From Wenyingzhuangia fucanilytica (GTDB lineage: Bacteria > Bacteroidota > Bacteroidia > Flavobacteriales > Flavobacteriaceae): DNA of 64,000 bases. Each line of letters starts with the position of its first letter. Within the stretch, counting starts at the first letter, position 1. The position numbers and the translations under genes are program-made. Below the pieces are notes generated by a model. It worked only from the letters and a program-made list of their open reading frames with translations, made no database searches and was not told where the DNA came from. Shown piece after piece: positions 37,006 through 64,000 of the stretch. The stretch spans positions 1,922,001-1,986,000 of the forward strand of contig NZ_CP014224.1 in NCBI RefSeq assembly GCF_001697185.1, given 5' to 3'.

Positions 37006-38568
37006 TTATCTCAATTTTAATTGTTGAATTTTTTGATAATCATTTCCTCTTAACTCTTCAAAAACACCTAATAATTCTTTAAGTTTATTTGGGTATGATT
37101 TTGCTAAATTATTTTGTTGTCCAACGTCTTTCTTTAGATCATACAATTGATAATCTTTAGAGTTTCCAAATTCTATTCCCACTTTTTCACTAAAAGCTGG
37201 ACCTTTATAAGGAGGAATCATTAACCAATCTCCACTTCTTAAAGCTGTTCTAGAGGTTGCTTCAATAATTAAATTATCTCTACCCTTTGTAGTTTCTCCC
37301 ATAAAGGTTGATAATAAATTTTGACTATCTAACCCTTCTTCTACTTTTGCTCCTGTTAAATTAGCTAAAGAAGACAATAAATCCATTTGACAAACAACAG
37401 CATCAGAAACCATTGGTTTTATTGTTCCTTTCCAGGTAACACTAAAAGGAACTCTTACACCAGCTTCGAACAAACTATACTTTCCTCCTCTTAAATCACC
37501 TGCTGGTTTATGATTTCCTAATTTTTCAACTGCATCATCATAATATCCATCATTTAACACAGGTCCATTATCACTAGAAAAAACAATTAATGTGTTTTCT
37601 AACATTCCTTCTTGTTCTAAAGTTTTCATAAACTCTCCAATACACCAATCAGCTTCTAAAATAACATCTCCTCTTGGTCCTAAACCAGATTTTCCTGCAA
37701 ATCTTGGGTGTGGAATTCTTGGCACATGTGGTTGTTGCATTGCATAGTATAGAAAAAATGGTTTTTCTTTATGTGTTTTTACATAGTTTTTCGCTTTGGC
37801 TAAAAAGTGATCTGCCATATCAGTGTCAACCCATTTTGCAGCTTCTCCACCTTTCATAAATCCAATTCTAGGAACCCCATTTACAATACTATTATTATGT
37901 CCATGGTGCCATTTCATTGTTAACATTTCTGGATGATCTATAGCTGTTGGTTCTCCTTCAAAATTATTTTTATAATCAACAGAAATTGGGTCTTTAGGAT
38001 CAAGTCCAACAACATTTCCGTTCTCTATATACACTGTAGGAACTCGGTCTTGTGTTGCTGCAAGTATATAAGAAGAATCAAAACCAACCTCATTTGGTCC
38101 AGGTTTAATTTGTTCGTTCCAATTAACATAACCAGTACCTAAACCTAAATGCCATTTTCCTATAATAGCAGTATCATAGCCTTTACTTTTTAACATTTTA
38201 GGTAATGTTTGTTGTTCTGTACCAATAATTAAAGGTGCTGTTCCTGGTAAAATTTTAGCATCTTTATTTCTCCACGGATACACTCCTGTTAACAATGCAT
38301 AACGACTTGGAGTACAAGTGGCTGAAGAAGCATAACCGTTTGTAAATTTTACTCCTTGATTGATTAAATTATCAATATTTGGAGTTTCCAATTCTGTGGC
38401 TCCATAAGCACTAACATCACCATATCCTAAGTCATCTAAATAGATGACCACTACATTAGGTTTTGTTTTATTTATTACTTTTTTTTCTTCTTTATTGGAT
38501 TTGCACGAAACCATGCTACCAACAGCCAAAATGGCTAAACTAGACAGAAAGATGTTTCTTAAATTCAT
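37006..38568 (-). CDS. S1 sulfatase, lipoprotein (C-T-P-S-R)
   Basis: This is a protein of about 520 residues, counted from MNLRNIFLSSLAIL; the open frame extends 17 codons further but the signal peptide begins here. Lipobox cysteine is C22 (GSMVSCKS). The formylglycine site is C85 in CTPSRYALLTG, with the metal ligands of VIYLDDLGYGD upstream and FSSDNGPV downstream, and GKWHLGLG. It resembles arylsulfatase A-type members that cut exo-sulfates from galactose-containing polymers. It is the last gene of the locus, 85 bases after a GH110 gene. Activity needs a sulfatase-maturing enzyme, which is not in this window. The substrate is inferred from context. Confidence 0.9.
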   Translation of the reverse strand: MNLRNIFLSSLAILAVGSMVSCKSNKEEKKVINKTKPNVVVIYLDDLGYGDVSAYGATELETPNIDNLINQGVKFTNGYASSATCTPSRYALLTGVYPWRNKDAKILPGTAPLIIGTEQQTLPKMLKSKGYDTAIIGKWHLGLGTGYVNWNEQIKPGPNEVGFDSSYILAATQDRVPTVYIENGNVVGLDPKDPISVDYKNNFEGEPTAIDHPEMLTMKWHHGHNNSIVNGVPRIGFMKGGEAAKWVDTDMADHFLAKAKNYVKTHKEKPFFLYYAMQQPHVPRIPHPRFAGKSGLGPRGDVILEADWCIGEFMKTLEQEGMLENTLIVFSSDNGPVLNDGYYDDAVEKLGNHKPAGDLRGGKYSLFEAGVRVPFSVTWKGTIKPMVSDAVVCQMDLLSSLANLTGAKVEEGLDSQNLLSTFMGETTKGRDNLIIEATSRTALRSGDWLMIPPYKGPAFSEKVGIEFGNSKDYQLYDLKKDVGQQNNLAKSYPNKLKELLGVFEELRGNDYQKIQQLKLR

Positions 38569-38653
38569 TTTATATATTTTAATTTTAAACTGGATATTTA
38601 TTTTACGAGTTAGTATCAAAACAGATGGTAGTAATGACTTTTTTATTTATCTA

Positions 38654-40555
38654 TTATTTAAATTTCAACTTTGGTAATAGATTGTCTTTTACTAAAATTT
38701 GTTTTGCTTTTCCTTTGTACTTATTCTTTTTAAAGGTGATATTCTTTGATGTTTTAACAGTTATTGCAGGGTTTTCTGGATGCAATATTTTAAAAGTTCC
38801 TGAATTACTAATTGTATTTTTAGAAAAAATTAATCCATCTGTATTGGCAACCTCTAAGATTAAATTATCAAATTGATTAAAGGTGTTATTGATAATACTA
38901 ATATTTTTAAACGCAATATTTTCATTATCATCATCAGTAACAAAACGAATCACTCCTCTGTTCTGACCACTATGTGTACAGTCTTGAAAAGTATTATTTT
39001 CTATTAAAATATTAGCTCCATTACCTGATTCGTACCAATGTCCACTTTCTACAGGAATTAAAATAGCTTCCATTTCTGTACTAAAAAAGTTATTTCTTAC
39101 AATTGTTTTTAAGGGATTAGATATTAATAACCCTCTTGCTCTATTATTACTAATGGTACAATTTTCTACTAACAAATCTGGATATGCATCTAAATTTTCA
39201 ATTAAATCCCCTGTCTTAATTTCTTTAGGTAGTTCTTCATTAAAAGTTATAATTTGGTATCGTCCGTTAATGAATTGAACCTCTTTAATAGTTAATTTGT
39301 GATACGGAAAAAATGAATCACTCAATCTAACCAAACCAATAAGATCTTCTTCTTTTCCTATTTGAAAACCTTGTTGTTGCGAATGTCCCATTCTAACCCC
39401 TATTTTATTCCCTCCCAAAACATCAACAATTTTTTGATAGGTTCCGTGAACGTTCATCGCATCGTCTAACTGATTTTGAAAAGTGGAATTTCTCAATACT
39501 ATTTTTCCTCTACACCCTACAAAATGTGTAGCATCAGCAGTTGCAGATACCATTCTACCATGAGAGGGAGTGATATTAAAATTATCTAAAATTAAATCTG
39601 ATGAATTTTCTGCAATAATCCCCATTCCACCAGCGTGATGAATATTTACATTGGTTCCATTAAAGCCATCAGTATTTGTTACTCTAAAGGCCGGGGCCAA
39701 TCTATTTACACTTTGATCTCCTTTTGCCGTTAAAATCATTCCTACAGGAGGTAACTTTTTTTTGTGGTTAAAAACCCTTACCAAACCTGGTTTTAACTCC
39801 TTTACTATTAGATTATTTTCTTTTCCATAATCTTTAAACAACTTTCCTCTATCATCTACTTCGTACTTGTATTTAATTTTATCTAGATTTCTAGAAACAT
39901 TATTTTTTCTAATAGTTGTTAGGTTTGTATAACTTTCGGTATCAAACATAATTGCCTCTCTAATAGGATCATACAATATAGTTTGGCCTAAATTATGTTC
40001 GTAAAACTCTTTTATAAAAATCAATTCTCCATTTCTAATTTCATAAGGATATTTATCCGAAATGGTCATATCAAAAGTTTTGTTTTTTTCATCAACAGCT
40101 ACAATTTTTGTTTCGCTATGAAAAGGAATTTCCCAATCTACAGATACATTTTTAACCGTAACATTTTTAGAACTATTAATTAAAAAAGGAACCATTTTTC
40201 CATGAAAAATAAAGGTAGATCCTTGACCATCTATAGTGATGTTTTTAAAATCAAAAATTGGAAAAGCAGTTCTTACCATTACATCGTCATGATTAGAAAT
40301 GTAACAAAACTTTTCTAGTGCTTTATCAGAATAAAAATGATAGATACCTTTTTCAAATTTAATTTGATTTTCTTGCTCCTTATTTAAATTTAAAATTTTA
40401 TTTAAAACAGCTGGAGTAGCGTCCTCAGCAATATCTGTTTTAAAAACAATAGGCTCCACAGCTGTTGGTTTAGCAAATGAATTTGTAGTAAATACAAATA
40501 GTACTACCCAAAAACTTTTTATCAAACCTAAAATATTCTTTTTAGTATTTTTCAT
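38654..40555 (-). CDS. GH110-family alpha-1,3-galactosidase (copy 1)
   Basis: This 633-residue secreted protein has a signal peptide (about 1-28, TTNSFAKP) and a right-handed parallel beta-helix with NNTF/NNRARG-type coils. Signature regions are ITIDGQGSTFIFHGKMVPF, HAGGMGIIAENSSD, the acid cluster D341 (TADATHFVGCRG) and D364-D365 (LDDAMNVHGTY), and the C-terminal NNTF repeats. The three-aspartate arrangement, 23 residues apart, is that of GH110 exo-alpha-1,3-galactosidases. In carrageenans the alpha-galactose is linked 1,3 to beta-galactose, so this enzyme would act after desulfation. It has its own unit after the terminator at 40646. Confidence 0.85.
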   Translation of the reverse strand: MKNTKKNILGLIKSFWVVLFVFTTNSFAKPTAVEPIVFKTDIAEDATPAVLNKILNLNKEQENQIKFEKGIYHFYSDKALEKFCYISNHDDVMVRTAFPIFDFKNITIDGQGSTFIFHGKMVPFLINSSKNVTVKNVSVDWEIPFHSETKIVAVDEKNKTFDMTISDKYPYEIRNGELIFIKEFYEHNLGQTILYDPIREAIMFDTESYTNLTTIRKNNVSRNLDKIKYKYEVDDRGKLFKDYGKENNLIVKELKPGLVRVFNHKKKLPPVGMILTAKGDQSVNRLAPAFRVTNTDGFNGTNVNIHHAGGMGIIAENSSDLILDNFNITPSHGRMVSATADATHFVGCRGKIVLRNSTFQNQLDDAMNVHGTYQKIVDVLGGNKIGVRMGHSQQQGFQIGKEEDLIGLVRLSDSFFPYHKLTIKEVQFINGRYQIITFNEELPKEIKTGDLIENLDAYPDLLVENCTISNNRARGLLISNPLKTIVRNNFFSTEMEAILIPVESGHWYESGNGANILIENNTFQDCTHSGQNRGVIRFVTDDDNENIAFKNISIINNTFNQFDNLILEVANTDGLIFSKNTISNSGTFKILHPENPAITVKTSKNITFKKNKYKGKAKQILVKDNLLPKLKFK

Positions 40556-40645
40556 TCTTAATTTTAATTACTTGCCTCTAGCAAAGATTGTTTTTTAATA
40601 AAAGATAAATGTTTCCTTTTGTAAATTAATTGTATCTATAAGTAA

Positions 40646-40678: not shown

Positions 40679-40699
40679 AAAACCCTGTTAATATTACAT

Positions 40700-43045
40700 T
40701 TACAGGTTTATCTCATAAGTTTGCTCAATCTTGTTCGATTTTGCAACAATTTTAATTTTACCTTTTTTAGTTCCGATTTTTAACAATCCTGTTGCAATTC
40801 CGGCTTCGGCTTTTATCTCTCCTACATTTTGCATGCTTGCATCTCCTTCTATTTCAAAAGTTACCTTTTCTGAATAATCAGGGACAATAGTTCCATTTTC
40901 ATCAACGGCTGCTACATATACAAATAAAACATCATTTACTCCAGCTTCTGGCTTTTTTCCAGAGGTGTCTATCCAAATTTTTAATGCTGTTGGATTTCCT
41001 GGTGTTGTTACTTCATCAATCTTTACTTCTTTTCCATCTACATAACCTACAGCTTTTAAAGTTCCTGCTTTAAAGCTTTTTAAATTGAATGTAAAAGGAG
41101 GATGTGACAAATCTGATGAATTTTTATCTGTATCTGGTTTTTGTTTTCCTATTAACTCATCATTTAAGTACAAGGCAAGTTCATCACAATTACTATATAC
41201 TTTTAGATTTAATGGAGATTTTTTATTCCAATAAGAAGCAATTTTTACTACAGCTCCATCCTCTATATCTCTTTGACTTTGATAAAAATAATAAGCAAAT
41301 TTTGGCAATCTAAAAATATCCATCAAACCAGATGCTTCTATATCGTTATGATATCCTCTATTATAATCATACATCACCCAATAACTGTCTGAAAAAGCTA
41401 CTGTATTCTGTAAGTTATCATTATGAGCTTCTTGTACATTGGCTGCTTGTCTTAATAAACGCTCTTCTCCAAATGCACGCTTTTGTCTACTACTAAATTC
41501 ATCTCGTAAATCGTTCGGTAATTGATCTTGATTTAACCCTGCATTTTTAGAATAATACTCCCAATCTCCATATTCTGAAACTGAATAAGGTTTGTCTTTA
41601 AGTTTGTGAGGAGACAATATTCTATGTTGTCTTGCTTGTAAATAAATATCATATACATCGTCCATCCAACCACTAGAGTACACATTTTCTCCAGGGTATT
41701 CTGCATGTACAATTCTATCTAACTCCTCCATAAAGAAAACTGGCATTTGCGTTTCGTTAAGAGATACTTCCCATGCCAACACTGATGGGTGATTTCTATC
41801 TCTACGAATTAATTGTTCTGCCGATTTGTAACAATACGCTCTAAACTGATCGTTATCTAAGTAGTATTGCCATCCTAAAATAGCATCTAAAACAACCAAT
41901 CCTAATTCATCACAAGCATCTAAAAAAGATGGTGATTGAGGGTAATGAGATAACCTTATATAATTAAAACCAGCATCTTTTATTTTTTTTGCATCACGAT
42001 ATTGAGCATTATCAGAAAGTGCATAACCCACAAACGGATACTCTTGATGTCTATTTACCCCTCTTAAAAAGGTTTTTTCTCCGTTAATAAACAATTCTTT
42101 GTTTTTAAACTCAAATTTTCTAATTCCAAAACGTGTTGTTTCTTGATCTATTATATTTCCATCTACTATTATTGAAGTTTCTAAACTGTATAAATTTGGT
42201 TGTTTAGGAGACCATAACTTAGCGTTTGGTAACGTAATATTCATACTAACATCTATATCTTTTCCTGATTGAATAGAAATATCTGATGTTGTTTTGCTTT
42301 GTACTTCTTTATTATCAAATAATATTTTTTGGGTGACTTTGATCGTTTTATCACTTGTAAATTCATTAACAACATTAGTCTTAATTGCTATTTCTGATAA
42401 GTCTTTAGAAACTTTAGGATAAGTAATAAATACTCCTCCTCCAGCAACTTTATTTGCTATTGCAGGGTGAGAAATATACAATTTGTCCTTAACACTTAAC
42501 CAAGCGTTTCTGTACAAACCTCCATACATATTAAAATCTAACTTTGCCAAAGGTTTTGGTCCAGTTAGCGGGTTATCTGTATTATTAAGTCTAACAGCAA
42601 TCGTGTTTGTTTGTCCCTTAACAATATATTTAGTAGCATCAATCACTACTGGTAAATAACCTCCTTTGTGCATAGCTACTTCTACTCCATTAATCCAAAT
42701 AACAGAATGACTCATTGCCGCCTCAAACTCTACAAACACTTTTTTGTCATCATCTACTAGTGGCAAATCAAAAGATTTTCTATACCAACAGATACCTTGC
42801 CATTGATTATTAACTATAAGAGGCTCTAGATGAGCTGTATGAGGCAAGTTTACAGTTTCCCAATTTGAATCATTAAAATCTACATTTTCAAATTGAGCTT
42901 CATTATTATCATCTTTATCTAAGAGTTTAAATTTCCATTCAGAATTTATCTTAAAATGAACATTATTGGACTTTTGACATGAAAACAAACAAACCCCAAC
43001 AAAAAGGCTTAGAATGAATATTTTTATTTTAGATAGTAACTCCAT
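40700..43045 (-). CDS. GH2 glycoside hydrolase, probable beta-galactosidase, lipoprotein
   Basis: This 781-residue protein has lipobox C23 (CLFSC), a GH2 N-terminal jelly roll (about 35-190, NLPHTAHLEP), an Ig-like middle domain, and a TIM barrel (about 310-590). The acid/base is E431 (EVSLNE) and the nucleophile E491 (SVSEYGD). C-terminal Ig-like domains resemble DUF4982 and the BIG family (AVDENGTIVPDYSEKVTFEIEGDA). Substrate specificity is not readable from the sequence, but in a galactan locus an exo-beta-galactosidase is expected to alternate with GH110. It follows a sulfatase gene after 17 bases. Confidence 0.88.
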   Translation of the reverse strand: MELLSKIKIFILSLFVGVCLFSCQKSNNVHFKINSEWKFKLLDKDDNNEAQFENVDFNDSNWETVNLPHTAHLEPLIVNNQWQGICWYRKSFDLPLVDDDKKVFVEFEAAMSHSVIWINGVEVAMHKGGYLPVVIDATKYIVKGQTNTIAVRLNNTDNPLTGPKPLAKLDFNMYGGLYRNAWLSVKDKLYISHPAIANKVAGGGVFITYPKVSKDLSEIAIKTNVVNEFTSDKTIKVTQKILFDNKEVQSKTTSDISIQSGKDIDVSMNITLPNAKLWSPKQPNLYSLETSIIVDGNIIDQETTRFGIRKFEFKNKELFINGEKTFLRGVNRHQEYPFVGYALSDNAQYRDAKKIKDAGFNYIRLSHYPQSPSFLDACDELGLVVLDAILGWQYYLDNDQFRAYCYKSAEQLIRRDRNHPSVLAWEVSLNETQMPVFFMEELDRIVHAEYPGENVYSSGWMDDVYDIYLQARQHRILSPHKLKDKPYSVSEYGDWEYYSKNAGLNQDQLPNDLRDEFSSRQKRAFGEERLLRQAANVQEAHNDNLQNTVAFSDSYWVMYDYNRGYHNDIEASGLMDIFRLPKFAYYFYQSQRDIEDGAVVKIASYWNKKSPLNLKVYSNCDELALYLNDELIGKQKPDTDKNSSDLSHPPFTFNLKSFKAGTLKAVGYVDGKEVKIDEVTTPGNPTALKIWIDTSGKKPEAGVNDVLFVYVAAVDENGTIVPDYSEKVTFEIEGDASMQNVGEIKAEAGIATGLLKIGTKKGKIKIVAKSNKIEQTYEINL

Positions 43046-43062
43046 AAGTTTTAAAATAATTG

Positions 43063-44550
43063 TTAATTTTTATGATACTTTTTGTACAGATTAGAAAAGT
43101 GCTTATAACCTATTTCTTCTCCATTTACCATTCTTTGATAGTCTTTAGGATATGTTTTTTTTACCCACTCTACTAGTTCTGGTCCCTTAGTAATAATTGG
43201 TTCATAAATATCACTTACAGGTTCCATTTTTTTATCAAAACAAATGGTTTCTTTACGCAGTTTTTTTAGAATTTTAGCATACTTAGGATTGGTTGCTAAA
43301 TTGTGTAGTTGATAAGGATCGTTTTTTAAATCATATAATTCTTCTACTGGTTTTGAAGGTTCAAAAAATGGTTTTTGATTCTCATTTAACTTTCCTTCTT
43401 TATACAGTTTTCTCATTACATGTACTGCTGGTCTATAAAACTCTAAATATGCCTGATGAGCATCATAAGGAACTTCTGGCTTGTCATTTCTAATATAAGA
43501 CCAATCTGCCGAAGTAACCGCTCTTGATTTCTCTTCAATTTCATCCCATAAATCTCTTGCTCCATATACGTATTCTCTATCAAATTTTTTACTAAAAATT
43601 GGTTGACCTGTCATATAATCTGGAACTTTAACTCCTGCATAATCTACAATAGTTGCCGTGATATCTGTAGCAGAAACTACTTGATTGCTAACTTGTCCTG
43701 CTTTTATATTCTTAGGATAGTGAATTAACAAAGGAATTCTTAATCCTGGATCTTGTAAATATCCTTTTCCTCTAATGTTACAACGCCCGTTATCTCCAAT
43801 AAAAATAACGATTGTATTATCTGCCATTCCTTTTTCTTCTAACTCCTTAAAAATCATCCCAACTTCATTGTCCATGTACTCTATTTGATCTAAATACTTA
43901 GCCCAGTCTAGTCTAACCGCAGGATGATCTGCCATATATGGAGGCATATTTACTGTTTTAGGATTTACTGGATGCTTAGACTGTTCTCTAACCTCGTTCC
44001 ACCAAGGACCTCTGTGAGTAACAACACATTGAATTTGAGCAAAGAAAGGTTGATCTTCTTTTTCAAAAGTATCGTACTTATCAAAAAGTCCAAACTTGGT
44101 TTTACCATCCCATTCACCAATAGGTTTATTCTTAAAATTCACATCAATTTTTCTACCCTTATTCATTACTCCGTGGTGACCTAAAATAGTAGTATACCCA
44201 GCATCTCTTAATAATTTGGTGAAAGGTTTAAATTGAGTATCTAAAGGCACATTCCTGTTACTTCTATGGTTATGTGTGTTTGTTTTTACCTGATGAGTTC
44301 CTATCATCATAGAAGATCTACTAGGAGAGCATATAGGATTGGTTACAAAGGCATTATTAAATCTAATTCCTTCGGATGCCATTTTGTTTAAGTTAGGTGT
44401 TTTAACATCTGGCAAACCATAACATTCTAAATCTGTACTCATATCTTCTGCCATAATCCAGATGATATTTGGTTTTTCTGATTTATTTTTTTGAGCAAAA
44501 ATTAAATTTACACTCAATAAAACAGCACTGTATAAAATTATTTTTTTCAT
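43063..44550 (-). CDS. S1 sulfatase (C-S-P-S-R), heparan N-sulfatase-like subgroup
   Basis: This 495-residue secreted protein has a signal peptide (about 1-19, LIFAQ), catalytic C74 in CSPSRSSMMIG, the metal-site acid pair IMAEDMSTD and FIGDNGRC. The THQVKTNTHNHRS stretch after the active site resembles sulfamidase-type members (S1_8-like); this subfamily call is tentative. Related subfamilies have been reported in carrageenan loci, so the substrate need not be a glycosaminoglycan. It lies in an operon with two more sulfatases upstream (10-base gap) and a GH2 gene downstream. Confidence 0.9.
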   Translation of the reverse strand: MKKIILYSAVLLSVNLIFAQKNKSEKPNIIWIMAEDMSTDLECYGLPDVKTPNLNKMASEGIRFNNAFVTNPICSPSRSSMMIGTHQVKTNTHNHRSNRNVPLDTQFKPFTKLLRDAGYTTILGHHGVMNKGRKIDVNFKNKPIGEWDGKTKFGLFDKYDTFEKEDQPFFAQIQCVVTHRGPWWNEVREQSKHPVNPKTVNMPPYMADHPAVRLDWAKYLDQIEYMDNEVGMIFKELEEKGMADNTIVIFIGDNGRCNIRGKGYLQDPGLRIPLLIHYPKNIKAGQVSNQVVSATDITATIVDYAGVKVPDYMTGQPIFSKKFDREYVYGARDLWDEIEEKSRAVTSADWSYIRNDKPEVPYDAHQAYLEFYRPAVHVMRKLYKEGKLNENQKPFFEPSKPVEELYDLKNDPYQLHNLATNPKYAKILKKLRKETICFDKKMEPVSDIYEPIITKGPELVEWVKKTYPKDYQRMVNGEEIGYKHFSNLYKKYHKN

Positions 44551-55584: not shown

Positions 55585-57015
55585 TTATTGAAACTTAAAG
55601 ATGTTACTTTCACTTCTAGCTTCTGTCATTATTTGTTGAATTTTAGCAACAATTTCAGGATGTTGATTGGCTATATTAGTTGTTTCAAATTCATCATTTT
55701 CTAAATCGTACAATTCAATTTTAGCTTTGGGATTGCTAATTGCTTTATAGATAACTCCTTTCCATTTTCCTAAACGAACCGCTTTACGACCACCTTTAAT
55801 ATTATATTCCCAATACAAATATTCGTGTTGTTTTTGATTGTTTTGACTTAATAAAGTAGGTAAAAAAGAAATTCCATCACTTTGCTTAGGCGTTTCTACT
55901 CCTACAATATCTGCAAGCGTTGGCATTACATCCCAAAAAGCAGACACGTGATTGGTAACCACTCCTGGCTTAATGGTATTTGTCCATGTTGCCACAAAAG
56001 GAGCTCTAATTCCACCTTCGTACAAGTCCCTTTTAATTCCTCTTAAACCAGCTGTGCTATTAAAATATTCTGGATTGGCTCCACCTGCATCGTGTGCACC
56101 ATTATCACTTGTAAACATAATAATCGTGTTTTCCTCTAGACCTAAAGCTTTAACCTTAGCAACAATTTGTCCTACATAAACGTCCATTCTATCTACCATA
56201 GATGCAAAAACAGCATAAGGTATTTCTTGAGTACAATATTTATATTCAATAATATTTGGTCCATAATCTGATGAATAAGGATGATCTTTATAAGGAACTT
56301 CATCAAACTTACCGATGTACTTTTGTAAAATAGAGTCTTTAGGTGATATTAGCTCCGCGTGAGGTAATACTAGAGGTACATAAGCAAAAAATGGTTTGTC
56401 TTTATTTTGTTCTATAAATTCTAATGCTTTTTCTTGAATTTTATCTTGAGCATAAATAACCGTATTTGTCCAATCGTTTCCTTTTAAAGAATCAACTCCC
56501 TGATTGTGGTTTAAATAAGGTGGATAATATCTATGTGCTAATTTTTGATCGTTATACCCATAAAACTCATCAAAACCTTGTTTGTTTGGGTCTCCTTCTC
56601 CAAAACCTAATCCCCATTTACCGAACATTCCTGTTGTATATCCTGCTCCCTTTAACATTTCACCAATGGTTATAGAGTTTGCTGGTAAAGGAATTTGACC
56701 GCCACTAATTTTATCTTCTTTATTTCCTCTAATAGGTGTGTGACCCGTGTGCTGACCTGTCATTAAAGACGATCTAGATGGAGCACATACAGCAGCTCCA
56801 CTATAATGTTGTGTAAATTTAATTCCGCTTTTTGCTAAAGCATCAATATTTGGTGTTTTGAACTTTTGTTGTCCATAAACACTTAAATCTCCAATTCCCA
56901 AATCATCTGCCAAAATATAAATGATGTTTGGCTTTTTATGGCTTACTTTTTCTTTTGTCGTAGCTTTACAAGCTCCTAGCAATAATACAATTGCTAAATA
57001 TTTAAGTTTACTCAT
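55585..57015 (-). CDS. S1 sulfatase, lipoprotein (C-A-P-S-R)
   Basis: This 476-residue protein has lipobox C16 (LLGACKA), catalytic C77 in CAPSRSSLMTGQHTGHTPIRGNK, ADDLGIGDLSVYGQ upstream, GKWGLGFGEG and FTSDNGAHDAGGANPEYF downstream. The TGHTPIRGNK form is the S1_16-like arylsulfatase type and parallels the protein at 44561. Its last 14-base gap to the GH2 gene shows co-transcription. A hairpin separates it from the sulfatase upstream. Confidence 0.9.
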   Translation of the reverse strand: MSKLKYLAIVLLLGACKATTKEKVSHKKPNIIYILADDLGIGDLSVYGQQKFKTPNIDALAKSGIKFTQHYSGAAVCAPSRSSLMTGQHTGHTPIRGNKEDKISGGQIPLPANSITIGEMLKGAGYTTGMFGKWGLGFGEGDPNKQGFDEFYGYNDQKLAHRYYPPYLNHNQGVDSLKGNDWTNTVIYAQDKIQEKALEFIEQNKDKPFFAYVPLVLPHAELISPKDSILQKYIGKFDEVPYKDHPYSSDYGPNIIEYKYCTQEIPYAVFASMVDRMDVYVGQIVAKVKALGLEENTIIMFTSDNGAHDAGGANPEYFNSTAGLRGIKRDLYEGGIRAPFVATWTNTIKPGVVTNHVSAFWDVMPTLADIVGVETPKQSDGISFLPTLLSQNNQKQHEYLYWEYNIKGGRKAVRLGKWKGVIYKAISNPKAKIELYDLENDEFETTNIANQHPEIVAKIQQIMTEARSESNIFKFQ

Positions 57016-57105: not shown

Positions 57106-58614
57106 CTACTCTAGATTACTTAGTACTCTGTTTTGTTTTATGGTAGGATCTTGATCTGCATCTACGTAATTTTTGGGCTTTGGATAATGTTCCTTTTTAG
57201 CCTGTACTCTTTGTTTAGGTATCCATTTTTTTAACTCATTCATGGTATTTCTGTATGATTCTTTATGAGCTAAATTCTCCCATTCTCTTGGATCTTTATT
57301 TACGTCATACAATTCCTCTACACCTGACAAATATTGAATGTAGTGGTATTTTTCTGTTAAGACTGAAGTCCCACTAGATGAAATTGTTACTCCTGGATAC
57401 TTCCAATCAGACTTTGGATTTTTTAAGAGTTTAGAAAAATCATGTCCTTCTATGTTTTTCTTTTGGGGTAAATCACAAAGGCTTACCAAGGTAGGATACA
57501 TATCTAACAAACTGACAGGTTTTTCACAATACAAGGTTTTGTTCATTCCTGGTAATCGTACCATTAAAGGCGGTTTAACCGCTTCTGCCCACAAAGTATT
57601 TTTAAGATATCTTAATTTTTCTCCCAAGTGCCAACCATGATCTCCCCATATCATTACAATGGTATTATCTGCATGCCCGCTTTTTTCCAAAGCATCCATC
57701 ACCATTCCCAAACATTTATCTACAAAAGAAATATTGGCCAAATAAGCTCTTGTAGCCTGTTTTCCTAAATTGTGTTTTTTTATCCAGTTGTACTCATCCG
57801 AAGGTTTAAATATTTGTTTTCCTTGAGCATTGGTAATATCCTCTAAATCGTTTTCTTTTATAATAATGTCATCTATTTTATCAACATCATACATGTCAAA
57901 AAACTCTTTAGGAACAAACCAAGGTAAATGAGGTTTTATAAAACCTACCGACATAAAAAAAGGCTTATCAAACTCTCTTTGTAATTGATTTTTTGCCCAA
58001 TCTGCCACAGCGTAATCTACCGTTTCTTCAAAAGTATCTTTGGTAGGACCCCAACTTAATTTGCTAAGTTTGTCTTTAAAATCCGGACTTTTTTGACCAT
58101 TGATAACTCCTCCTTTAGAAGAAGTTAAAAACTTAGGGTTTGCTTTGTCATTGTTATATCTTCTACCCCTAGCAAACTCATCAAAAGCCCAAGCCCCAAA
58201 GTCTGTCTTTCCGTTTTTAGTACCATGCTTGTGAAAAATTTTTCCATTAGACAATGTATGATACCCATTTTTAGAAAAATACTCTGGTAACGTTGCATTT
58301 TTCTTTACCACATCTGAATATACCATATCATGTCCGTTGCTATAAACTCCAGAAGTACTTGGTAAAAAACCTGATAAAATTGCTGACCTAGAAGGACCAC
58401 AAATAGGTGCTGCACAAACAGCATTGTTAAACACCATAGCTCCATTTTTGGTAAACTTATCCATATTAGGAGTTATAGCTTGCTTGTTTCCTTCTAAGGG
58501 TTCTATCCAATCGTTAAGATCATCAATAGCAATAAATAAAACATTTGGTTTTTGTTGTGCATTACCCAACATAAGGTTTATAAATAAACCTAAAATTAAA
58601 GTTACATTTTTCAT
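57106..58614 (-). CDS. S1 sulfatase, iduronate-2-sulfatase-like (C-G-P-S-R)
   Basis: This 502-residue secreted protein has a signal peptide (about 1-19, LMLGNAQ), catalytic C72 in CGPSRSAILSGFLPSTSGVY, FIAIDDLNDW upstream, GFIKPHLPWFVPKEFFDMY and WGDHGWHLGEKLRY downstream. These are the signatures of the iduronate-2-sulfatase-like subgroup (S1_7-like). Members from marine Bacteroidota, including ones in carrageenan loci, act on sulfated galactans. The subfamily call is tentative. It follows the beta-propeller protein gene by 11 bases and shares its promoter. Confidence 0.9.
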   Translation of the reverse strand: MKNVTLILGLFINLMLGNAQQKPNVLFIAIDDLNDWIEPLEGNKQAITPNMDKFTKNGAMVFNNAVCAAPICGPSRSAILSGFLPSTSGVYSNGHDMVYSDVVKKNATLPEYFSKNGYHTLSNGKIFHKHGTKNGKTDFGAWAFDEFARGRRYNNDKANPKFLTSSKGGVINGQKSPDFKDKLSKLSWGPTKDTFEETVDYAVADWAKNQLQREFDKPFFMSVGFIKPHLPWFVPKEFFDMYDVDKIDDIIIKENDLEDITNAQGKQIFKPSDEYNWIKKHNLGKQATRAYLANISFVDKCLGMVMDALEKSGHADNTIVMIWGDHGWHLGEKLRYLKNTLWAEAVKPPLMVRLPGMNKTLYCEKPVSLLDMYPTLVSLCDLPQKKNIEGHDFSKLLKNPKSDWKYPGVTISSSGTSVLTEKYHYIQYLSGVEELYDVNKDPREWENLAHKESYRNTMNELKKWIPKQRVQAKKEHYPKPKNYVDADQDPTIKQNRVLSNLE

Positions 58615-58625
58615 ATTTTTAGTTA

Positions 58626-61331
58626 TTAGTATTCTATATCAATAAACTGTAAAGAACCTGCTAAAACTTTTGTTTGTATTTTTCCGTTAGAGATTTTCAC
58701 TTGTTGTTTTGATAATATATCTACAGCCTTTTTAGGTTGATTTCCATTAAAAGTAATGGTTACCTCTCTATCTTTTGGTTCAATATATCCTGGATCTACT
58801 AATATTACACGAACGTGATTTTTATCGATTCTAACAGCGCTCCAAGAAGCCCCATTGACAATAATTGGCAATTGTGACTTTCCTTTAGACACAATTTCTT
58901 TAAACTCACTCATATAAGTTTTTGCTGCCACTAATTCTCCGTTAGAAACTCCTTTAGATCCATTGCTAACGCTATAAGGAGTTTTATTCTTCTCCAATTC
59001 TTTTGCGTATTCTATTGGAGCAATTGGCACCATTCCATTTGGCATTACAGGCATGTAATTCAACCATCTATAATCTACCCCCAAAGCTATTTTAGAATAA
59101 TCATGAGCTGGAATGTCTGTTCCTGCCCAATGCATTTGAGTTACAGAAAATAAATCTTCGGTATCAGTAGGCTTGTATTGTTTTAAAGAGTGATGACTAT
59201 CTATAGAATGAATTAAATGAGCATCTACATCTTTGATTAAATGCCAAGAACCTATTGACATAATATTCTCTTTTTTAACAATTGGCAAAGCACCAGATTT
59301 CATCAATCCGAATAAAATATTTAATCCTGGTTCTTCTGTAAAATTATTATCGGCAACTACACCATGCTTTGCTCCATAGGCAGCCATCATCACCCCTTGT
59401 CTTAAATAAGGAGAAATAGATTTTTGTCCTCCAGGACTTAAAGGTCTCCAGCTTGTTGGGTTATCATCAATCAAACGCATGGCAAAATCATCTACATAAC
59501 CTGCGACAAACATTCCTACTCTACCCGTAAGGTTAATATCTTGTGTTCTGTTGCTTGTATCTTCTGATGCAGGAGCCAAAATATCGTTGTATTTATTAGA
59601 AAAAAACAACTCTTGCCATAGTGGTAATTTGTTGGTTAATCCCCAAAAAGTATTTTTATATCTAAAATACAACTTAGCTCTATTTTTATTTTTTCTAATA
59701 GCTTTTGCCAATCTAGGCACGTACTCTCTTACAAAATGTTGTACTCTAGGATCATCTACATCATCCATTTCAGCATATACAAAACCTCTACAAGTGGTAG
59801 GGGCTACTTCTAAAACTTGCTCTAAAGTTTCTATTTGAATGTAAAAAGGATCGTTTCCATGACCTGCCCAAAAGGTAAAATGTTGACCCTCTTTCTCATA
59901 ATTTTTAGCCATATTTACGATGTCTTCTCTAGAATCTTCGTATTTACCTCTTTTATCTTTTTTAAGTGCTGACTTTCCTATAACAGCTACTAAAGGAGTT
60001 CTATCAGTCCCTTCTTTTGGTGCTCTTTGAATGACAAACTCAACTTTATTTCCGTTTAACTTTTTAACCTTTCCATCTATTTTTTTACTTGTAACCATCA
60101 CCCAAGATTCATCAGTTTTTTTCTGATAACTAGGCATTTCAAAATCTAAAATTTGCTGATATAACAAGTCTAAATTTTCTTTTACTTGTGCCATGGTTCC
60201 TTCTAAACGATGGTTGGTAGACAACCAAGAAGACTTTTTAAGATTAAACACATAAACTCCATTTCCACCATCTACCTCTCCTGCAGTAATTAGTTGTTCC
60301 GATTGCGGCGCTAATACAAAATCACTATATACAATTTCGTGTTCACTAGCGTATCTAGTTCCTGCTTTCTCTATCAGTTTACCTCTAAGATCTAATCTGT
60401 GAGTAAAGCCTCCAAATTGAAAAACAATTTCATCTTTTATTGGTAACAAACAAGTTCCTTTGGTATTGGCATATCTCTGAATGTCTTTTCTAGTTCCTTT
60501 ATATGCAGTGATTACATTAAAATTTGCATCAAGTCCTACTACCACTGGCACCCAATTAACATCTCCAAAAAATAAAATATCAGACAATCCATCTTTGTTC
60601 AAATCTGCAATTTCTAGATCTGTAATCATGGCTTTGCTTAAATCTTTACTTTTAGATTTTTTGTAATCTAAAGTCTGAACGATTTTTTTAGTATTTGCAT
60701 CTATGATTCCCATAAAATCCCAACGGAATTTATCGTGAGAGTAAGTCATTACAAACAAATCTTGTTGCTGTTTGTTTACAAAATTTCCAGCTTCAATTTT
60801 TCTTATAACTCCTTCAATTTTTGTGGTTGAAACCAATGCTCCTTTTGCATTTAACTCATATAATTGATAATCATTACCTCCTGCAAAAACCCTTATTTGT
60901 TTGTTGTTTTTAGTTACAGCAATCTCAGAAAATCTCACCTTGTGATCTGGGGTAAACTTCCACAACAACTTTCCTTTGCTAGACCAACAATAAATGTTCC
61001 CGTTTCCTGATGCGGCTAAAATATCATCATTTCCATCACCATCTATATCAACTGCTTCAATCTCAAAAATAACCGCAGCTGGCTCTATTTTTTTATTCCA
61101 TATTTTTTTTCCTTCCAAAGAATAACAGCCAATGCCATCACTTAAACTAGAAACATACAATACCTCATGTTTATTTATTGTTGCTATTACAGAGTTTCTA
61201 ATATTTGACTCTTCTACAGAAAAGTTAGCTGTAGCCAAAACTGTTGCATTTGTTTTTACAAATGACATTACCAAAATGAAAGTAAAAGCTTGTACACTTT
61301 TAAAATTCGATAAATATTGATTTATTTTCAT
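58626..61331 (-). CDS. Beta-propeller plus C-terminal catalytic-type domain; GH150 lambda-carrageenase-like candidate
   Basis: This 901-residue secreted protein has a signal peptide (about 1-29) and an N-terminal region of PQQ/FG-GAP-like propeller blades (about 35-390) with calcium-type loops DIDGDGNDD (95-103) and DLNKDGLSD (243-251) and repeats such as YCWSSKGKLLWKF. From about 400 to 900 lies a large domain with conserved-looking acidic and aromatic patches (FWAGHGNDPFYIQIE, FVYAEMDDVDDPRV, SIGSWHLIKDVDAHLIHSIDSHH, GVDYRWLNYMPVMPNGM). Size and a PQQ-like N-terminus match the described lambda-carrageenase family GH150; I cannot confirm this by alignment. It is the first gene of its unit, after a terminator. 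Confidence 0.6.
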   Translation of the reverse strand: MKINQYLSNFKSVQAFTFILVMSFVKTNATVLATANFSVEESNIRNSVIATINKHEVLYVSSLSDGIGCYSLEGKKIWNKKIEPAAVIFEIEAVDIDGDGNDDILAASGNGNIYCWSSKGKLLWKFTPDHKVRFSEIAVTKNNKQIRVFAGGNDYQLYELNAKGALVSTTKIEGVIRKIEAGNFVNKQQQDLFVMTYSHDKFRWDFMGIIDANTKKIVQTLDYKKSKSKDLSKAMITDLEIADLNKDGLSDILFFGDVNWVPVVVGLDANFNVITAYKGTRKDIQRYANTKGTCLLPIKDEIVFQFGGFTHRLDLRGKLIEKAGTRYASEHEIVYSDFVLAPQSEQLITAGEVDGGNGVYVFNLKKSSWLSTNHRLEGTMAQVKENLDLLYQQILDFEMPSYQKKTDESWVMVTSKKIDGKVKKLNGNKVEFVIQRAPKEGTDRTPLVAVIGKSALKKDKRGKYEDSREDIVNMAKNYEKEGQHFTFWAGHGNDPFYIQIETLEQVLEVAPTTCRGFVYAEMDDVDDPRVQHFVREYVPRLAKAIRKNKNRAKLYFRYKNTFWGLTNKLPLWQELFFSNKYNDILAPASEDTSNRTQDINLTGRVGMFVAGYVDDFAMRLIDDNPTSWRPLSPGGQKSISPYLRQGVMMAAYGAKHGVVADNNFTEEPGLNILFGLMKSGALPIVKKENIMSIGSWHLIKDVDAHLIHSIDSHHSLKQYKPTDTEDLFSVTQMHWAGTDIPAHDYSKIALGVDYRWLNYMPVMPNGMVPIAPIEYAKELEKNKTPYSVSNGSKGVSNGELVAAKTYMSEFKEIVSKGKSQLPIIVNGASWSAVRIDKNHVRVILVDPGYIEPKDREVTITFNGNQPKKAVDILSKQQVKISNGKIQTKVLAGSLQFIDIEY

Positions 61332-61438
61332 ATGTTAATCTTATGATTTGATATAATACCTTACAAAAAAAACATATAACTAATAAAATTATGTACTTAT
61401 GAATATATATGATGTATTGCTAAATGTATCTGTAAACA

Positions 61439-61482
61439 AAAAGTCGTTTAAAAAAAGAATTACCTTTTATTAAACGACTTTT
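61439..61482 (-). terminator. Terminator after the GH2-SGNH unit
   Basis: AAAAGTCGTTTA pairs perfectly with TAAACGACTTTT across a 20-base A/T-rich loop, 20 bases past the SGNH gene stop codon on the minus strand, followed there by a T-run. Confidence 0.75.
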
Positions 61483-61502
61483 GATTTTATTTTTTTTTAA
61501 AG

Positions 61503-62315
61503 CTATTCTTTTTCCTTTAAAAACTTAACTGTTTCATAAGCTATTAAATTGTATCCTGTAGAATTTGGATGACGATCGTAGTACCATTCCTTAAGATGTC
61601 CAAAAATAGGGTCCAAAGACATATCATTTACCTTTACAACATACCCATCTGGTTTGTTTCCCCACCCTTTTCTATAATAAACATGAGGTTTTAACCATTC
61701 GTGATATTTTTCAGGAATTTTATCTAAATAACACTGACGTACATTTAAACTGTTTCTACCATTAGCTATTAAATAATTATTATAAGGAGTAAAAATATCT
61801 AATACGTCTAATTGCTCATCTTTACCAACTTGATATATTAAATCATTTACTTCTACACATTTTTCAGGAGACATAAAAGATGTAATGGTTGCTAAATATA
61901 AAACAGCTTTAGGGTGATCTTTTTGTAATTGTTTAATTAAAGCTTTCATTTGAACAGGAAATTCTGCTTTTAAGTCTTTACATTTAAACGAATCATTAAT
62001 TCCCATTCTTAAAAAGATAATATCCACATCTTTTACTGTTGCTATTTTTTCTTCGTAATGTTTACTTCCTAATAACCTTTTAGCGGTTTCTCCTCCTTTT
62101 CCAGCATTAATTACTTCTAATTCGGGTAAACCTTCTACCACAGCTAACTGCTCTATCATTTGTTCTAAATGTGGCCCCTCTGGATTTACTTCTCGTGGCA
62201 TATTACCAATAGTAGTACTATCTCCTACTAGTAAAATTTTTGTCTTTTTTTGCTGACTATACCCAATACTTATTATTAATAAAATAAGTAAAAAATGAAT
62301 TTTATTTTTTTTCAT
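61503..62315 (-). CDS. Secreted SGNH/GDSL hydrolase, carbohydrate esterase-like
   Basis: This 270-residue protein has a signal peptide (about 1-20, IISIGYSQ) and the four SGNH blocks: GDST (S33), INAGKGGET (G74), MGIND (N107) and the C-terminal DRHPNSTGY (D247/H249). The fold fits rhamnogalacturonan acetylesterase-like or other carbohydrate deacetylases. In this locus it could remove acetyl or other ester groups from the galactan; the substrate is inferred. It is 18 bases after the GH2 gene and ends its transcription unit. Confidence 0.85.
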   Translation of the reverse strand: MKKNKIHFLLILLIISIGYSQQKKTKILLVGDSTTIGNMPREVNPEGPHLEQMIEQLAVVEGLPELEVINAGKGGETAKRLLGSKHYEEKIATVKDVDIIFLRMGINDSFKCKDLKAEFPVQMKALIKQLQKDHPKAVLYLATITSFMSPEKCVEVNDLIYQVGKDEQLDVLDIFTPYNNYLIANGRNSLNVRQCYLDKIPEKYHEWLKPHVYYRKGWGNKPDGYVVKVNDMSLDPIFGHLKEWYYDRHPNSTGYNLIAYETVKFLKEKE

Positions 62316-62333
62316 AATATCTCTTAATTTCTA

Positions 62334-64000
62334 TTATTCTTCTACGGTTAAATTAACTTTTGTGGTTTTTAATCCTTTAGAAGTAGCTGTTACTGTAATT
62401 TTTCCTGTTTGTCCTTTTTTAGATTTTACCACAACCAATGCCATTCCGTTAAACACTTTTCTTGTGGTAGCTTGAAAAGATTCGTGACTTGTAGTATCGC
62501 CATTTCCTACAGCAACAATTTCTCCGGGTCCGCTAATAGTATAATTAACAACATTGTGAGTTCTAGGAACTGTTTGTCCTTTTTTGTCTTTAATTTCTAC
62601 AGTTATAAAAGACAAATCTTGTCCGTCTGCTTTTATTTTAGTTCTGTCTGCCGTTAAAGAAACTTTGTTTGCAGTACCTGTAGTTTTTACTTTTTCTGTA
62701 GCCCATTTTTTTCCGTTTTTATAGGCAACTACTTTTAATTCTCCTTTTTGATAAACTACATCTTTCCAAATCAATCTATATTCATATTGACCTTTCTTTT
62801 TTCTCCCTAAAGATTTACCGTTTAAAAACAGTTCTGCCTCATCACCAGAAGTATACACCAAAACAGGAGTTACTTTTCCTACTCTTTCTGGCCAATTCCA
62901 ATGTGGTAAAATATGTGCCATTGGCAATTCTGGTTTCCATTTAGATTGATACAAATAATACCTATCTTTAGGAAAACCACATAAATCTACAATTCCAAAA
63001 TAAGAACTACGTGGTGGAATTTGTTTACCCATTTTAGCCAATTCGGCTTTCATTCTAGCTTTTTCTTTAGGATCCGAAAAGTTTAACAAGTTGGTTTTGT
63101 CTTTGTTATAAGGAGTAGGTTCTCCAATATAATCAAAACCTGTCCATACAAACTGACCAAACAACCAAGGGAATTTATCTTCTGCTTCAAAATCTTTTTC
63201 AGGAATATCTGCCCAATTTGGAGCCGAATAATCGTAACTACTTACCTGAAAGAAACCTCCGTTTCCTTGTTTTTTATCATCAAAGTTTACAGGAAAAAAG
63301 TATTCTCCTCTAGAGCTAATTGTAGAAGCGGTTTCACTTCCATACAATGGCATATTGGGATTTTCTTTTCTAAACTCTTCGTACATATGAGGCTTGTAAT
63401 TAAATCCAAAAACATCTGCTGTGAATTGAAATCCATTGGTTGCAGCCTCGGGTCTACTATTCCCAAAAGTAGTAGGTCTAGTAGTATCTACAGAGCGAAT
63501 AATATCTGCTAGTTTTGCTGCCAAAGGAGCATCGTTTCCTTCTCTTAATTCAATTAATTCATTTCCTGTACTCCACATTACTACAGACGGATGATTACGA
63601 TCTCTTTTTACCATCGTGATTAAATCTTTTTCGTGCCAAGCACCAAATAAAGAAGCATAATCGTTATCTACTTTTTTCTTTCCCCAAACATCAAAAGCTT
63701 CTACTTGTACCAAAACTCCCATTTTGTCACACATTTCTAAAAATTCTGGAGCAGGTGGGTTATGAGACGTACGAATAGCATTGACTCCAAAAGATTTTAA
63801 AATCTCTATTTGACGTTCCATTGCTCTCACGTTTACTGCGGTTCCCAAAGGACCTAAATCGTGATGTTGACAAACACCATTCATTCTTACTTTTTTACCG
63901 TTTAAGAAAAAACCATTGGCATTATATTCTATAGAACGAATTCCGAAAGTGGTGTTATACACATCTAAAATTTTTCCGTTCTTAGTTAAAGTAGTTTTTA
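62334..64000 (-). CDS. GH2 glycoside hydrolase (beta-galactosidase type), 5' end outside window
   Basis: The open frame continues to the right edge without a stop or plausible start, so the N-terminal sugar-binding domain and signal are missing; a GTG at 63962 is internal, not a start. The visible 550 codons hold the end of the Ig-like domain and the TIM barrel: VRMNGVCQHHDLGPLGTAV, RTSHNPPAPEFLEMCD, RDRNHPSVVMWSTGNE (acid/base Glu), PLYGSETAS (nucleophile Glu) and FVWTGFDYIGEPTP. C-terminal DUF4982-like and Ig-like domains follow (ADRTKIKADGQDLSFITVEIKDKKG). It is the third GH2 of the locus and is co-transcribed with the SGNH gene. Confidence 0.87.
   Translation of the reverse strand, partial: KTTLTKNGKILDVYNTTFGIRSIEYNANGFFLNGKKVRMNGVCQHHDLGPLGTAVNVRAMERQIEILKSFGVNAIRTSHNPPAPEFLEMCDKMGVLVQVEAFDVWGKKKVDNDYASLFGAWHEKDLITMVKRDRNHPSVVMWSTGNELIELREGNDAPLAAKLADIIRSVDTTRPTTFGNSRPEAATNGFQFTADVFGFNYKPHMYEEFRKENPNMPLYGSETASTISSRGEYFFPVNFDDKKQGNGGFFQVSSYDYSAPNWADIPEKDFEAEDKFPWLFGQFVWTGFDYIGEPTPYNKDKTNLLNFSDPKEKARMKAELAKMGKQIPPRSSYFGIVDLCGFPKDRYYLYQSKWKPELPMAHILPHWNWPERVGKVTPVLVYTSGDEAELFLNGKSLGRKKKGQYEYRLIWKDVVYQKGELKVVAYKNGKKWATEKVKTTGTANKVSLTADRTKIKADGQDLSFITVEIKDKKGQTVPRTHNVVNYTISGPGEIVAVGNGDTTSHESFQATTRKVFNGMALVVVKSKKGQTGKITVTATSKGLKTTKVNLTVEE

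Follow-up and report, generated by a model that had tools for sequence, protein, structure and literature searches.

A 42-gene locus of Wenyingzhuangia fucanilytica joins a predicted lambda-carrageenan cascade with enzyme families of bridged carrageenans

The closest described relatives of the locus studied here are the lambda-CarPUL of Pseudoalteromonas distincta U2A and PUL 8 and 9 of P. carrageenovora 9T, with which it shares GH150B, a GH110 pair, GH2, and sulfatases of S1_8 and S1_15 type (PMC12549532; PMC6262041; compared by aligning P. carrageenovora plasmid proteins). Among Flavobacteriaceae, bacterium S85 (Ochrovirga pacifica S85) is reported to carry two GH150 genes beside GH2 and GH110 (PMC6262041), and the CarPUL of Bacteroides xylanisolvens BxMAGBOV is described as uniting GH82, GH150 and GH167 with sulfatases, as found here, but comes from cattle gut and also includes GH16_17 carrageenases (PMC13168452; likened by description). 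The kappa/iota CarPULs of Zobellia and Pseudoalteromonas have the GH127 and GH167 families in common with our locus (PMC5698469, PMC6923384), which unlike them contains no GH16. The lambda cascade (2018, 2025) and the GH82, GH150 and GH167 locus of a gut Bacteroides (2026) are already in print, and the statement of a first-pass annotation that lambda loci are far less described than kappa/iota ones is dated, given their description in 2018 (PMC6262041) and biochemistry in 2025 (PMC12549532). A limited literature search found no locus study on theta-carrageenan carrageenases or on carrageenan use by Ochrovirga.

We analyzed a window of 64,000 nucleotides of the W. fucanilytica genome for gene content, family membership, key residues, gene order and conservation; features are given in window positions, flanking genes and the full-length third GH2 in genome positions. 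All 15 open reading frames in question lie on the minus strand (37006-63962, intergenic gaps of 4-211 bp), and Pfam assigns them seven sulfatases (PF00884), two GH110 (GLAA-B barrels), three GH2 and one GDSL/SGNH hydrolase, which together with a beta-helix and a propeller protein bears out the inventory of the first-pass annotation. The same-strand run continues past the window to genome position 2037644 and comprises 42 genes over 78.6 kb with a largest gap of 453 bp. Beyond the window it holds two canonical GH150, a GH110A orthologue, five further sulfatases, two GH167, a GH127, SusC/SusD, a hybrid two-component regulator and a LacZ-type GH2, so that GH150, GH110 and GH2 co-occur in one run as in a lambda-carrageenan PUL. 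The 27-kb window part has 7 of the 84 sulfatase matches of the 3.43-Mb genome, or about ten times the genome average, a clustering that is usual in such loci. None of the 7 GH16 of the genome lies in the run (the nearest is about 256 kb off). Instead, a separate kappa/iota-type locus at 2.51-2.55 Mb contains GH16, dauB/C/D-like genes, GH127 and sulfatases that share 67% and 57% identity with sulfatases of P. carrageenovora; at 1e-15, none of the dau proteins of that species has a match in the run itself. Also outside the window, a GH36-like protein (genome 1989838-1991301) matches solved GH36 weakly (E ~1e-4), and its AlphaFold2 model is poor (mean pLDDT 40.6).

The 901-aa propeller protein (58626..61331) exceeds the cut-offs of all three Pfam domains PF25290/25291/25292 (CGLA_M middle domain 190 bits, propeller 83, C-terminal domain 67) and shares 49% identity with P. 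carrageenovora GH150B and 56-83% with proteins of five named relatives. It is by its sequence a divergent GH150, a predicted lambda-carrageenase of the GH150B type, and the GH150B of P. distincta U2A was shown by assay to be a lambda-carrageenase in the cascade reported there (PMC12549532), so that the earlier proposal of an endo-acting propeller protein is supported at sequence level. Across 34 aligned GH150 rows (one being a cut duplicate), 8 acidic residues are invariant, including D459, D494, E521, E590, D623 and D744 of the middle domain when both GH150 types are aligned.

All 3 GH110 of the genome are located inside the 42-gene run. The flanking one (genome 2003308-2005125) is 56% identical to P. 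carrageenovora GH110A and has its Arg460, which accommodates a 6-sulfate, whereas both window copies lack it. The predicted alpha-1,3-galactosidase at 38654..40555 represents a third type with Pro where GH110A has Arg460 and GH110B Glu480; it retains the catalytic Asp, shares 33% and 31% identity with P. carrageenovora GH110A and GH110B, and has relatives at 65-67% identity in genomes G084, G323 and G334 and in Flammeovirga. The copy at 47554..49374 (34% and 32% identity to GH110A and GH110B) is GH110B-like in having Glu at the E480 position, but has Gly in place of D518, the residue that holds this Glu in GH110B. The GH2 protein truncated by the window end (62334..64000; full gene 821 aa, genome 1984334-1986799) is a predicted beta-galactosidase that passes the NCBIfam GalB equivalog cut-off of 900 with 1008.7 bits and is 43% identical to a P. 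carrageenovora GH2. The GH2 at 52523..55570, with a C-terminal CHB_HEX_C_1/Fn3_assoc region, stays below the GalA cut-off of 900 (621 bits) and recurs at 81-92% identity in three Wenyingzhuangia loci. The GH2 at 40700..43045 is divergent despite its GH2 Pfam domains (GalA 346 bits, under the same cut-off; 24% to P. carrageenovora GH2). An SGNH/GDSL hydrolase and possible esterase (61503..62315; PF13472, 3.8e-12) has matches at 1e-10 in 2 of 17 other-genome sets, both from Wenyingzhuangia.

All seven window sulfatases have the C-x-[PA]-x-R motif, and five of them, that is, 5 of the 12 in the run, were compared with solved structures. The sulfatase at 37006..38619 (CTPSR) shares 46% and 44% identity with two P. 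carrageenovora plasmid arylsulfatases and matches solved S1_15A (2e-154) and S1_15B (2e-143), and three further solved sulfatases score better than S1_15A; we consider it S1_15-type, predicted to act on galactose-6-sulfate. Its start codon in the ORF list is TTG, with an ATG further downstream. The protein at 43063..44550 (CSPSR) is a predicted galactose-2-sulfate sulfatase of S1_8 type, with S1_8A (1.7e-90), S1_8B (2e-68) and S1_8C (3.7e-48) well ahead of the next other solved relative (~3e-34). No subfamily is given for three proteins: the one at 44561..45973 (CSPSR), which is nearest to solved 7an1 and 7ana and then to 6prm, an exo-4S kappa-carrageenan sulfatase; the one at 45978..47342 (PF00884, CSPSR), whose best P. 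carrageenovora match is sulfatase RS20155 at 32%; and the one at 55585..57015 (PF00884, CAPSR), found at 67-90% identity in five relative sets (G334, S85 and three Wenyingzhuangia). The sulfatase at 49500..51077 (CTASR) is nearest to S1_30A (9ihk, 2e-82; next 6e-38), and the one at 57106..58614 (CGPSR) has no close solved relative (best 6hhm at just 8e-44) and 81-86% identity to proteins of three named relatives. Only 1 of the 12 run sulfatases is clearly S1_8, closest to S1_8A, and two others share ~26-28% identity with S1_8 proteins; unlike in U2A and 9T, no strong orthologue of S1_8B or S1_8C, the 2-sulfatases expected in a lambda PUL for alpha- and beta-linked ends, was seen among the run sulfatases (5 of 12 compared with solved structures), which counts against a composite locus as proposed below.

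The 427-aa beta-helix protein (51099..52382) had been called GH82-like, correctly so: it matches the solved iota-carrageenases 1h80 and 3lmw at 7e-66 (residues 44-323 for 1h80), although Pfam gives no match and NCBIfam only weak GH28-type ones (best 4e-10). We regard it as a predicted endo-carrageenase of GH82, the iota-carrageenase family. Like A. fortis CgiA (1h80), it has Q235, E258, H294, the GYG motif and an Arg two residues before the Glu, but Gly260 stands where CgiA has an Asp (A. fortis position 247). Among 29 aligned GH82 sequences this position is Gly in 17 (including P. carrageenovora GH82), Asp in 11 and His in 1; because Gly is so common, Asp is not diagnostic there, and we did not take its loss as evidence for an inactive enzyme. 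The N-terminus looks lipoprotein-like by eye. The catalytic roles of Q, E and H are given in PMC3669377, as are an arginine that binds the DA2S sulfate at +1 and a tyrosine that binds the 4-sulfate at -1, both of which are kept; PMC12549532 describes GH82 as exclusively iota-carrageenan-active.

Two solved relatives were found for the first GH167 copy of the flank, 9whd (4e-252) and 6ptm (8e-238), the latter deposited with a study in which GH167 enzymes are described to release beta-neocarrabiose (PMC6923384). The second copy is 60% identical to the first, and both keep the catalytic E310 and E495 (P. carrageenovora numbering). In a tree of 30 of 32 GH167 sequences (two shorter than 700 aa were dropped; lambda and kappa sides were labeled by hand from neighboring genes), both copies fall in a branch where 19 rows are lambda-side and 2 kappa-side; the P. 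carrageenovora enzyme is among the 7 kappa-side rows of another branch, which also has 2 lambda-side ones. The split is not clean, since the labels require 3 changes (2 of them on starred branches), and for this reason we did not adopt a lambda-specific clade; the lambda-labeled rows G237:C13 and G072:C43 lack a diagnostic neighbor, and the label of G001 and G019, which have no GH150, rests on GH110 or lambda-locus-like sulfatases. With both copies grouping apart from the P. carrageenovora enzyme in this tree, GH167, and likewise GH82, might have shifted in specificity in loci of this kind, which is another point against the composite reading. The GH127 is 57% identical to that of the separate kappa/iota-type locus, where the FAD oxidoreductase of the run also has a paralogue; in G084, GH127 adjoins a GH2 near GH150B. 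Its nearest solved relative, 5mqo, is named an arabinofuranosidase, and its match to the NCBIfam aceric acid hydrolase (727 bits) is under the cut-off of 950; both findings count against a composite locus.

Compared with U2A and 9T, the genes stand here in a single run with 3 GH150, 3 GH110, 12 sulfatases, SusC/SusD, and GH82 together with two GH167 and GH127, whereas the P. carrageenovora plasmid has its lambda genes and its GH82, GH167 and GH16 genes in separate segments. Several but not all related Flavobacteriaceae repeat the association of GH150 with GH82 and/or GH167. In 397 genomes, counted without regard to kinship, 10 of 13 GH150 carriers have GH82 and 9 have GH167, whereas among the 384 genomes without GH150 the numbers are 6 and 8, with copies per genome as lower bounds (the best 4 GH150, 4 GH82 and 2 GH167 candidates of each were scored). 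Of the 9 GH150 carriers with GH167, 7 have the two genes within 11 kb of each other, and of the 10 with GH82, 5 have it within 12 kb of GH150. For 11 of 12 further genomes with GH150, its surroundings were read; for the twelfth, G246, one stretch around GH167 was read instead. In S85 (G180), parts of two contigs match 24 of the 42 run genes at 51-88% identity (paralogues can share a best match), but these parts have no match to the GH127, SusC, SusD or regulator of the run and match one of the three GH110 types at 32% or less. G334 and G388 have GH150B, and genome searches found no GH82 and no GH167 in them, which again speaks against a composite reading.

We consider it probable that the window holds the downstream part of one composite carrageenan locus that serves mainly a lambda cascade. 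Since GH82, two GH167 and GH127 are found in it, the locus most likely extends to segments with 3,6-anhydro bridges as well, such as occur in natural hybrid chains. Activities, substrates, uptake and regulation are all predictions in what follows. The two canonical GH150 and the GH150B would cut beta-1,4 links, and the SusC/SusD pair would import the products. The S1_8-type 2-O-sulfatase and S1_15-type 6-O-sulfatase would then clear the non-reducing end, after which the GH110A-type and GH110B-like enzymes would take off alpha-1,3-galactose and the GalB-type GH2 beta-galactose. Bridged segments of hybrid chains would be left to GH82, the two GH167 and GH127. The first-pass annotation had likewise proposed alternating GH110 and GH2 after desulfation, which agrees by analogy with the cascade reported for P. 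distincta U2A (PMC12549532), and its lambda-carrageenan capacity is supported at sequence level by GH150B type, GH110, GH2, S1_8 and S1_15. Its restriction to unbridged chains is not supported, given the GH82 in the window and the GH127 and two GH167 with both catalytic Glu in the same run. It had itself named an adjacent anhydrogalactosidase or kappa/iota-specific GH16 as evidence to the contrary: taken to the letter, the former is there in the GH127, a putative enzyme of an anhydrogalactosidase family, and the latter is absent from the run.

A locus for unbridged lambda-carrageenan only, with GH82, GH167 and GH127 either re-specialized to lambda-family chains or mere neighbors, is the first rival, and it is unlikely. 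GH150, GH110, S1_8, S1_15 and GH2 do predominate, 19 of the 21 rows in the GH167 pair's branch are lambda-side by hand-set labels, G334 and G388 have GH150B with neither GH82 nor GH167 found, and the lack of GH16 in the run points the same way, as does the separate kappa/iota-type locus, which makes a second route for bridged carrageenan less needed. We nevertheless did not adopt it owing to GH82, GH167 and GH127: GH82 retains its active-site residues, 6PTM from the work on beta-neocarrabiose release (PMC6923384) is among just two solved relatives found for GH167, and GH127 and the FAD oxidoreductase have their paralogues in a kappa/iota-type locus. A quite doubtful proposal is a dedicated hybrid-carrageenan machine. 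In it, the substrates of the GH150B-tied GH82 and GH167 lineages would be G2S-DA2S (theta) or mixed junctions between lambda and bridged units, and the GH110 with Pro (38654-40555) would take terminal alpha-galactose bearing a substituent that GH110A and GH110B both refuse. Still less probable is a locus adapted to theta-carrageenan or to lambda/theta hybrids, with GH150 on unbridged stretches and GH82, GH167 and GH127 on bridged G2S-DA2S. We know of no theta-carrageenan enzyme or sequence marker, which counts against this idea, and GH82 and/or GH167 recurring beside GH150B in several relatives favors it. Theta-carrageenan is described as major in Callophyllis (PMC7511586) and the arginine for the DA2S sulfate is kept in GH82, but so is the tyrosine for the 4-sulfate, which is a better fit to iota (PMC3669377). 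Given three GH150, GH82 and GH167, all carrageenan families, and no match in the run to GH16, the sole agarase family searched by name, it is highly improbable that the locus targets a different sulfated galactan, be it agaran, porphyran or one from animals or green algae, even though several of the sulfatases, one of the GH2 and the SGNH/SASA esterases could not be given a part in carrageenan breakdown.

The composite locus favored here suggests that a single Bacteroidota locus can join a lambda cascade of the type reported for Pseudoalteromonas (PMC12549532) with endo- and exo-acting families for bridged carrageenan. It also puts forward candidate enzymes, namely the GH82 that accompanies GH150, the GH110 with a so far unseen residue in its active site, and the sulfatase at 57106-58614, and the invariant acidic residues of GH150 would aid the search for the catalytic pair of this family. 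Natural carrageenan chains are often mixed, and a composite locus may therefore be what the degradation of real seaweed needs.

The block at window positions 37006-64000 comprises 15 open reading frames, all on the minus strand and separated by gaps of 4-211 bp, and the Pfam scan bore out its first-pass annotation as a one-strand cluster of sulfatases, GH110 and GH2 with seven sulfatases, two GH110-type proteins, three GH2 proteins and one GDSL hydrolase. The third GH2 (62334-64000, cut by the window end) scored 1008.7 against the GalB NCBIfam model (cut-off 900). This block is part of a same-strand run of 42 genes, each covered by the Pfam scan, that reaches genome position 2037644 and spans 78,639 bp with gaps of at most 453 bp. 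Beyond the window, the run encodes a further five sulfatases along with three SASA esterases, a weakly GH36-like protein and two GH42-like proteins (Pfam), as well as a GH110 orthologue (56% identity to Pseudoalteromonas carrageenovora GH110A), an FAD oxidoreductase and two GH150 proteins, followed by SusD, SusC, a hybrid two-component regulator, GH127 and a LacZ-type GH2. All 12 sulfatases of the run (seven in the window, five in the flank) contain the C-x-[PA]-x-R motif, out of 84 sulfatase matches in the 3.43-Mb single-contig genome, of which the window covers bases 1922001-1986000, and all three GH110 of the genome lie inside the run. The GH36-like protein of the run (genome 1989838-1991301; stretch L005:5838-7301), with a Tat-like start and only weak GH36 similarity, was matched at 66-87% identity in the stretches of six relatives and possibly represents a new branch of alpha-galactosidases.

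The 901-aa propeller protein (58626-61331) matched the middle, propeller and C-terminal domains of lambda-carrageenase weakly (190, 83 and 67 bits; Pfam), while the two canonical GH150 of the run (978 and 954 aa) scored 659 and 641 bits for the middle domain. An alignment of 34 GH150 rows (one a cut duplicate; 21 A-type, 13 B-type) split into A and B by score, with D95, D459, D494, E521, E590, D623, D744 and D871 common to the aligned rows. GH150B of P. distincta U2A, with 26% identity to CglA, is described in the accessible text of PMC12549532 as active on lambda- and not on kappa- or iota-carrageenan. Relatives of the window GH150B in the genome scan were those of Ochrovirga pacifica S85 (83%), Wenyingzhuangia aestuarii (79%), W. 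sp. 2_MG-2023 (76%), W. heitensis (72%) and Flavivirga amylovorans (56%), and a PLSDB plasmid search with it returned two records, P. carrageenovora (48% over 98%) and Flammeovirga (25% over 99%). GH150 was matched in 13 of 397 Flavobacteriaceae genomes (weakly in G246, at 38 bits) and was not found in the two other same-genus genomes of this sample; a low-scoring B-type protein occurred in eight of the 13, each time together with a canonical GH150. A third canonical GH150 of the source genome lies away from the run at 657.7 kb. A second GH150 locus (genome ~645600-679000; stretches L017 and L018) has its own hybrid two-component regulator (54%) and SusC/SusD (58-59%, 50-51%), a sulfatase that shares 35% identity with an arylsulfatase of P. 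carrageenovora, and a strand change in its middle.

Families for bridged carrageenan are also encoded. The 427-aa beta-helix protein (51099-52382) had no Pfam match and weak GH28-type matches in NCBIfam, and comparison with solved iota-carrageenases (7e-66) assigns it to GH82. At the position of Asp247 of the A. fortis enzyme it has Gly, which is no argument against activity because 17 of 29 aligned GH82 sequences, including that of P. carrageenovora, have Gly as well (Asp in 11, His in one). A second GH82 of the genome (63209-64156; L095) has Asp at this position, and no neighbour in the 20 kb around it matched our carrageenan panel. The window GH82 retains Q235, E258, H294, the GYG motif and an arginine, whose CgiA_Ce equivalents are highly or strictly conserved according to the available part of PMC3669377. 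Both GH42-like proteins of the run are GH167, one by solved-structure search (9whd, 4e-252; 6ptm, 8e-238) and the other at 60% identity to the first, and both retain the two catalytic glutamates identified from the accessible text of PMC6923384, which reports release of the bridged disaccharide beta-neocarrabiose by GH167.

Five of the seven window sulfatases were compared with solved structures. The enzyme at 43063-44550 is S1_8-type, that at 49500-51077 has S1_30A as nearest solved relative (sulfatase 1_30 also occurs in ruminant carrageenan loci; PMC13168452, available text), that at 44561-45973 is nearest to 7an1/7ana and then to an exo-4S kappa sulfatase, and that at 57106-58614 had no close relative among solved structures. 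The sulfatase at 37006-38619 matched S1_15A/B strongly, but 7ozc, 7oze and 6s20 scored higher, so that its assignment as S1_15-type rests also on 44-46% identity to two P. carrageenovora arylsulfatases and on the two S1_15 named for plasmid PUL 9 in the accessible part of PMC6262041, whose names we paired to plasmid genes ourselves. P. carrageenovora GH110A and GH110B carry D324/R460/T498 and D344/E480/D518, the residues given for U2A in the available text of PMC12549532. At the discriminating site, the flank GH110 has Arg and is of A type, the window GH110 at 47554-49374 has Glu (with Gly at 518), and that at 38654-40555 has Pro. All three retain the catalytic Asp.

The run was set against 19 stretch sets, of which 17 came from other genomes or plasmids and two from the source genome. 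GH150, GH167 and GH82 occurred together in G084, G323 and S85, GH150 with GH167 in G002, G036 and W. sp. 2_MG-2023, and GH150 with GH82 in G168 and Flavivirga, while G051 had a partial GH82 match beside GH150B; neither GH82 nor GH167 was found in the compared stretches of G334, G388 and W. aestuarii, some relatives' stretches being bounded by contig ends or the range chosen. G084 also has a GH2-GH127 pair (79% and 85%) close to GH150B. Across the 397 genomes, counted irrespective of kinship, GH82 was found in 10 of 13 GH150 genomes vs 6 of 384 others (up to four candidates per genome scored for GH150 and GH82) and GH167 in 9 of 13 vs 8 of 384 (up to two GH167 candidates scored); GH167 lay <11 kb from GH150 in seven of nine genomes and GH82 <12 kb from it in five of ten. 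These counts carry the caveat that GH82 and GH167 would be expected in users of carrageenan.

Much of this has precedent: as far as the accessible texts go, a lambda-carrageenan cascade has already appeared in print (PMC12549532), P. carrageenovora and S85 are reported to have lambda loci that combine GH150, GH110 and GH2 (PMC6262041), and a Bacteroides genome has a locus with GH16_17, GH82, GH150, GH167 and sulfatases (PMC13168452), sharing the latter four with our run. Searching titles and abstract openings, mostly outside subscription literature, we found no published account of the run itself.

A separate, kappa/iota-type locus for bridged carrageenan at 2.510-2.546 Mb (genome 2509941-2545926; L070 and L071) contains three GH16, SusC/SusD, dauB/C/D-like genes whose products are 38%, 30% and 37% identical to proteins of P. 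carrageenovora, and two sulfatases that share 67% and 57% identity with sulfatases of that species. From this content, use of bridged forms is to be expected of the genome taken as a whole. The run GH127 and the run FAD oxidoreductase (genome 2006361-2008313; L006:2361-4313) each have a counterpart there, at 57% and 64% identity.

Elsewhere in the window lie clustered genes for DUF2126 amidoligase, circularly permuted ATP-grasp and transglutaminase-like proteins (1251-8084), a protein of 1355 aa that combines a CEMIP-like beta-helix with a secretion-system C-terminal sorting domain (16112-20179) and, ahead of the carrageenan block, haem biosynthesis genes (22841-32364; URO-D, class-III aminotransferase, ALAD, glutamyl-tRNA reductase, ferrochelatase). 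The LacI-type regulator and glucuronate isomerase (UxaC) immediately downstream of the block (34146-36710) had no match in the 19 stretch sets and therefore probably do not belong to it.

Judging from the activities of relatives, the run most likely works as follows: GH150 would fragment the chain, with GH82 doing so on iota-like stretches, and SusC/SusD would import the fragments, whose ends the sulfatases would clear. The GH110A-type enzyme would act with the 6-sulfate present and the GH110B-like enzyme after its removal, GH2 (GalB) would take off beta-galactose, and GH167 together with GH127 would handle bridged units.
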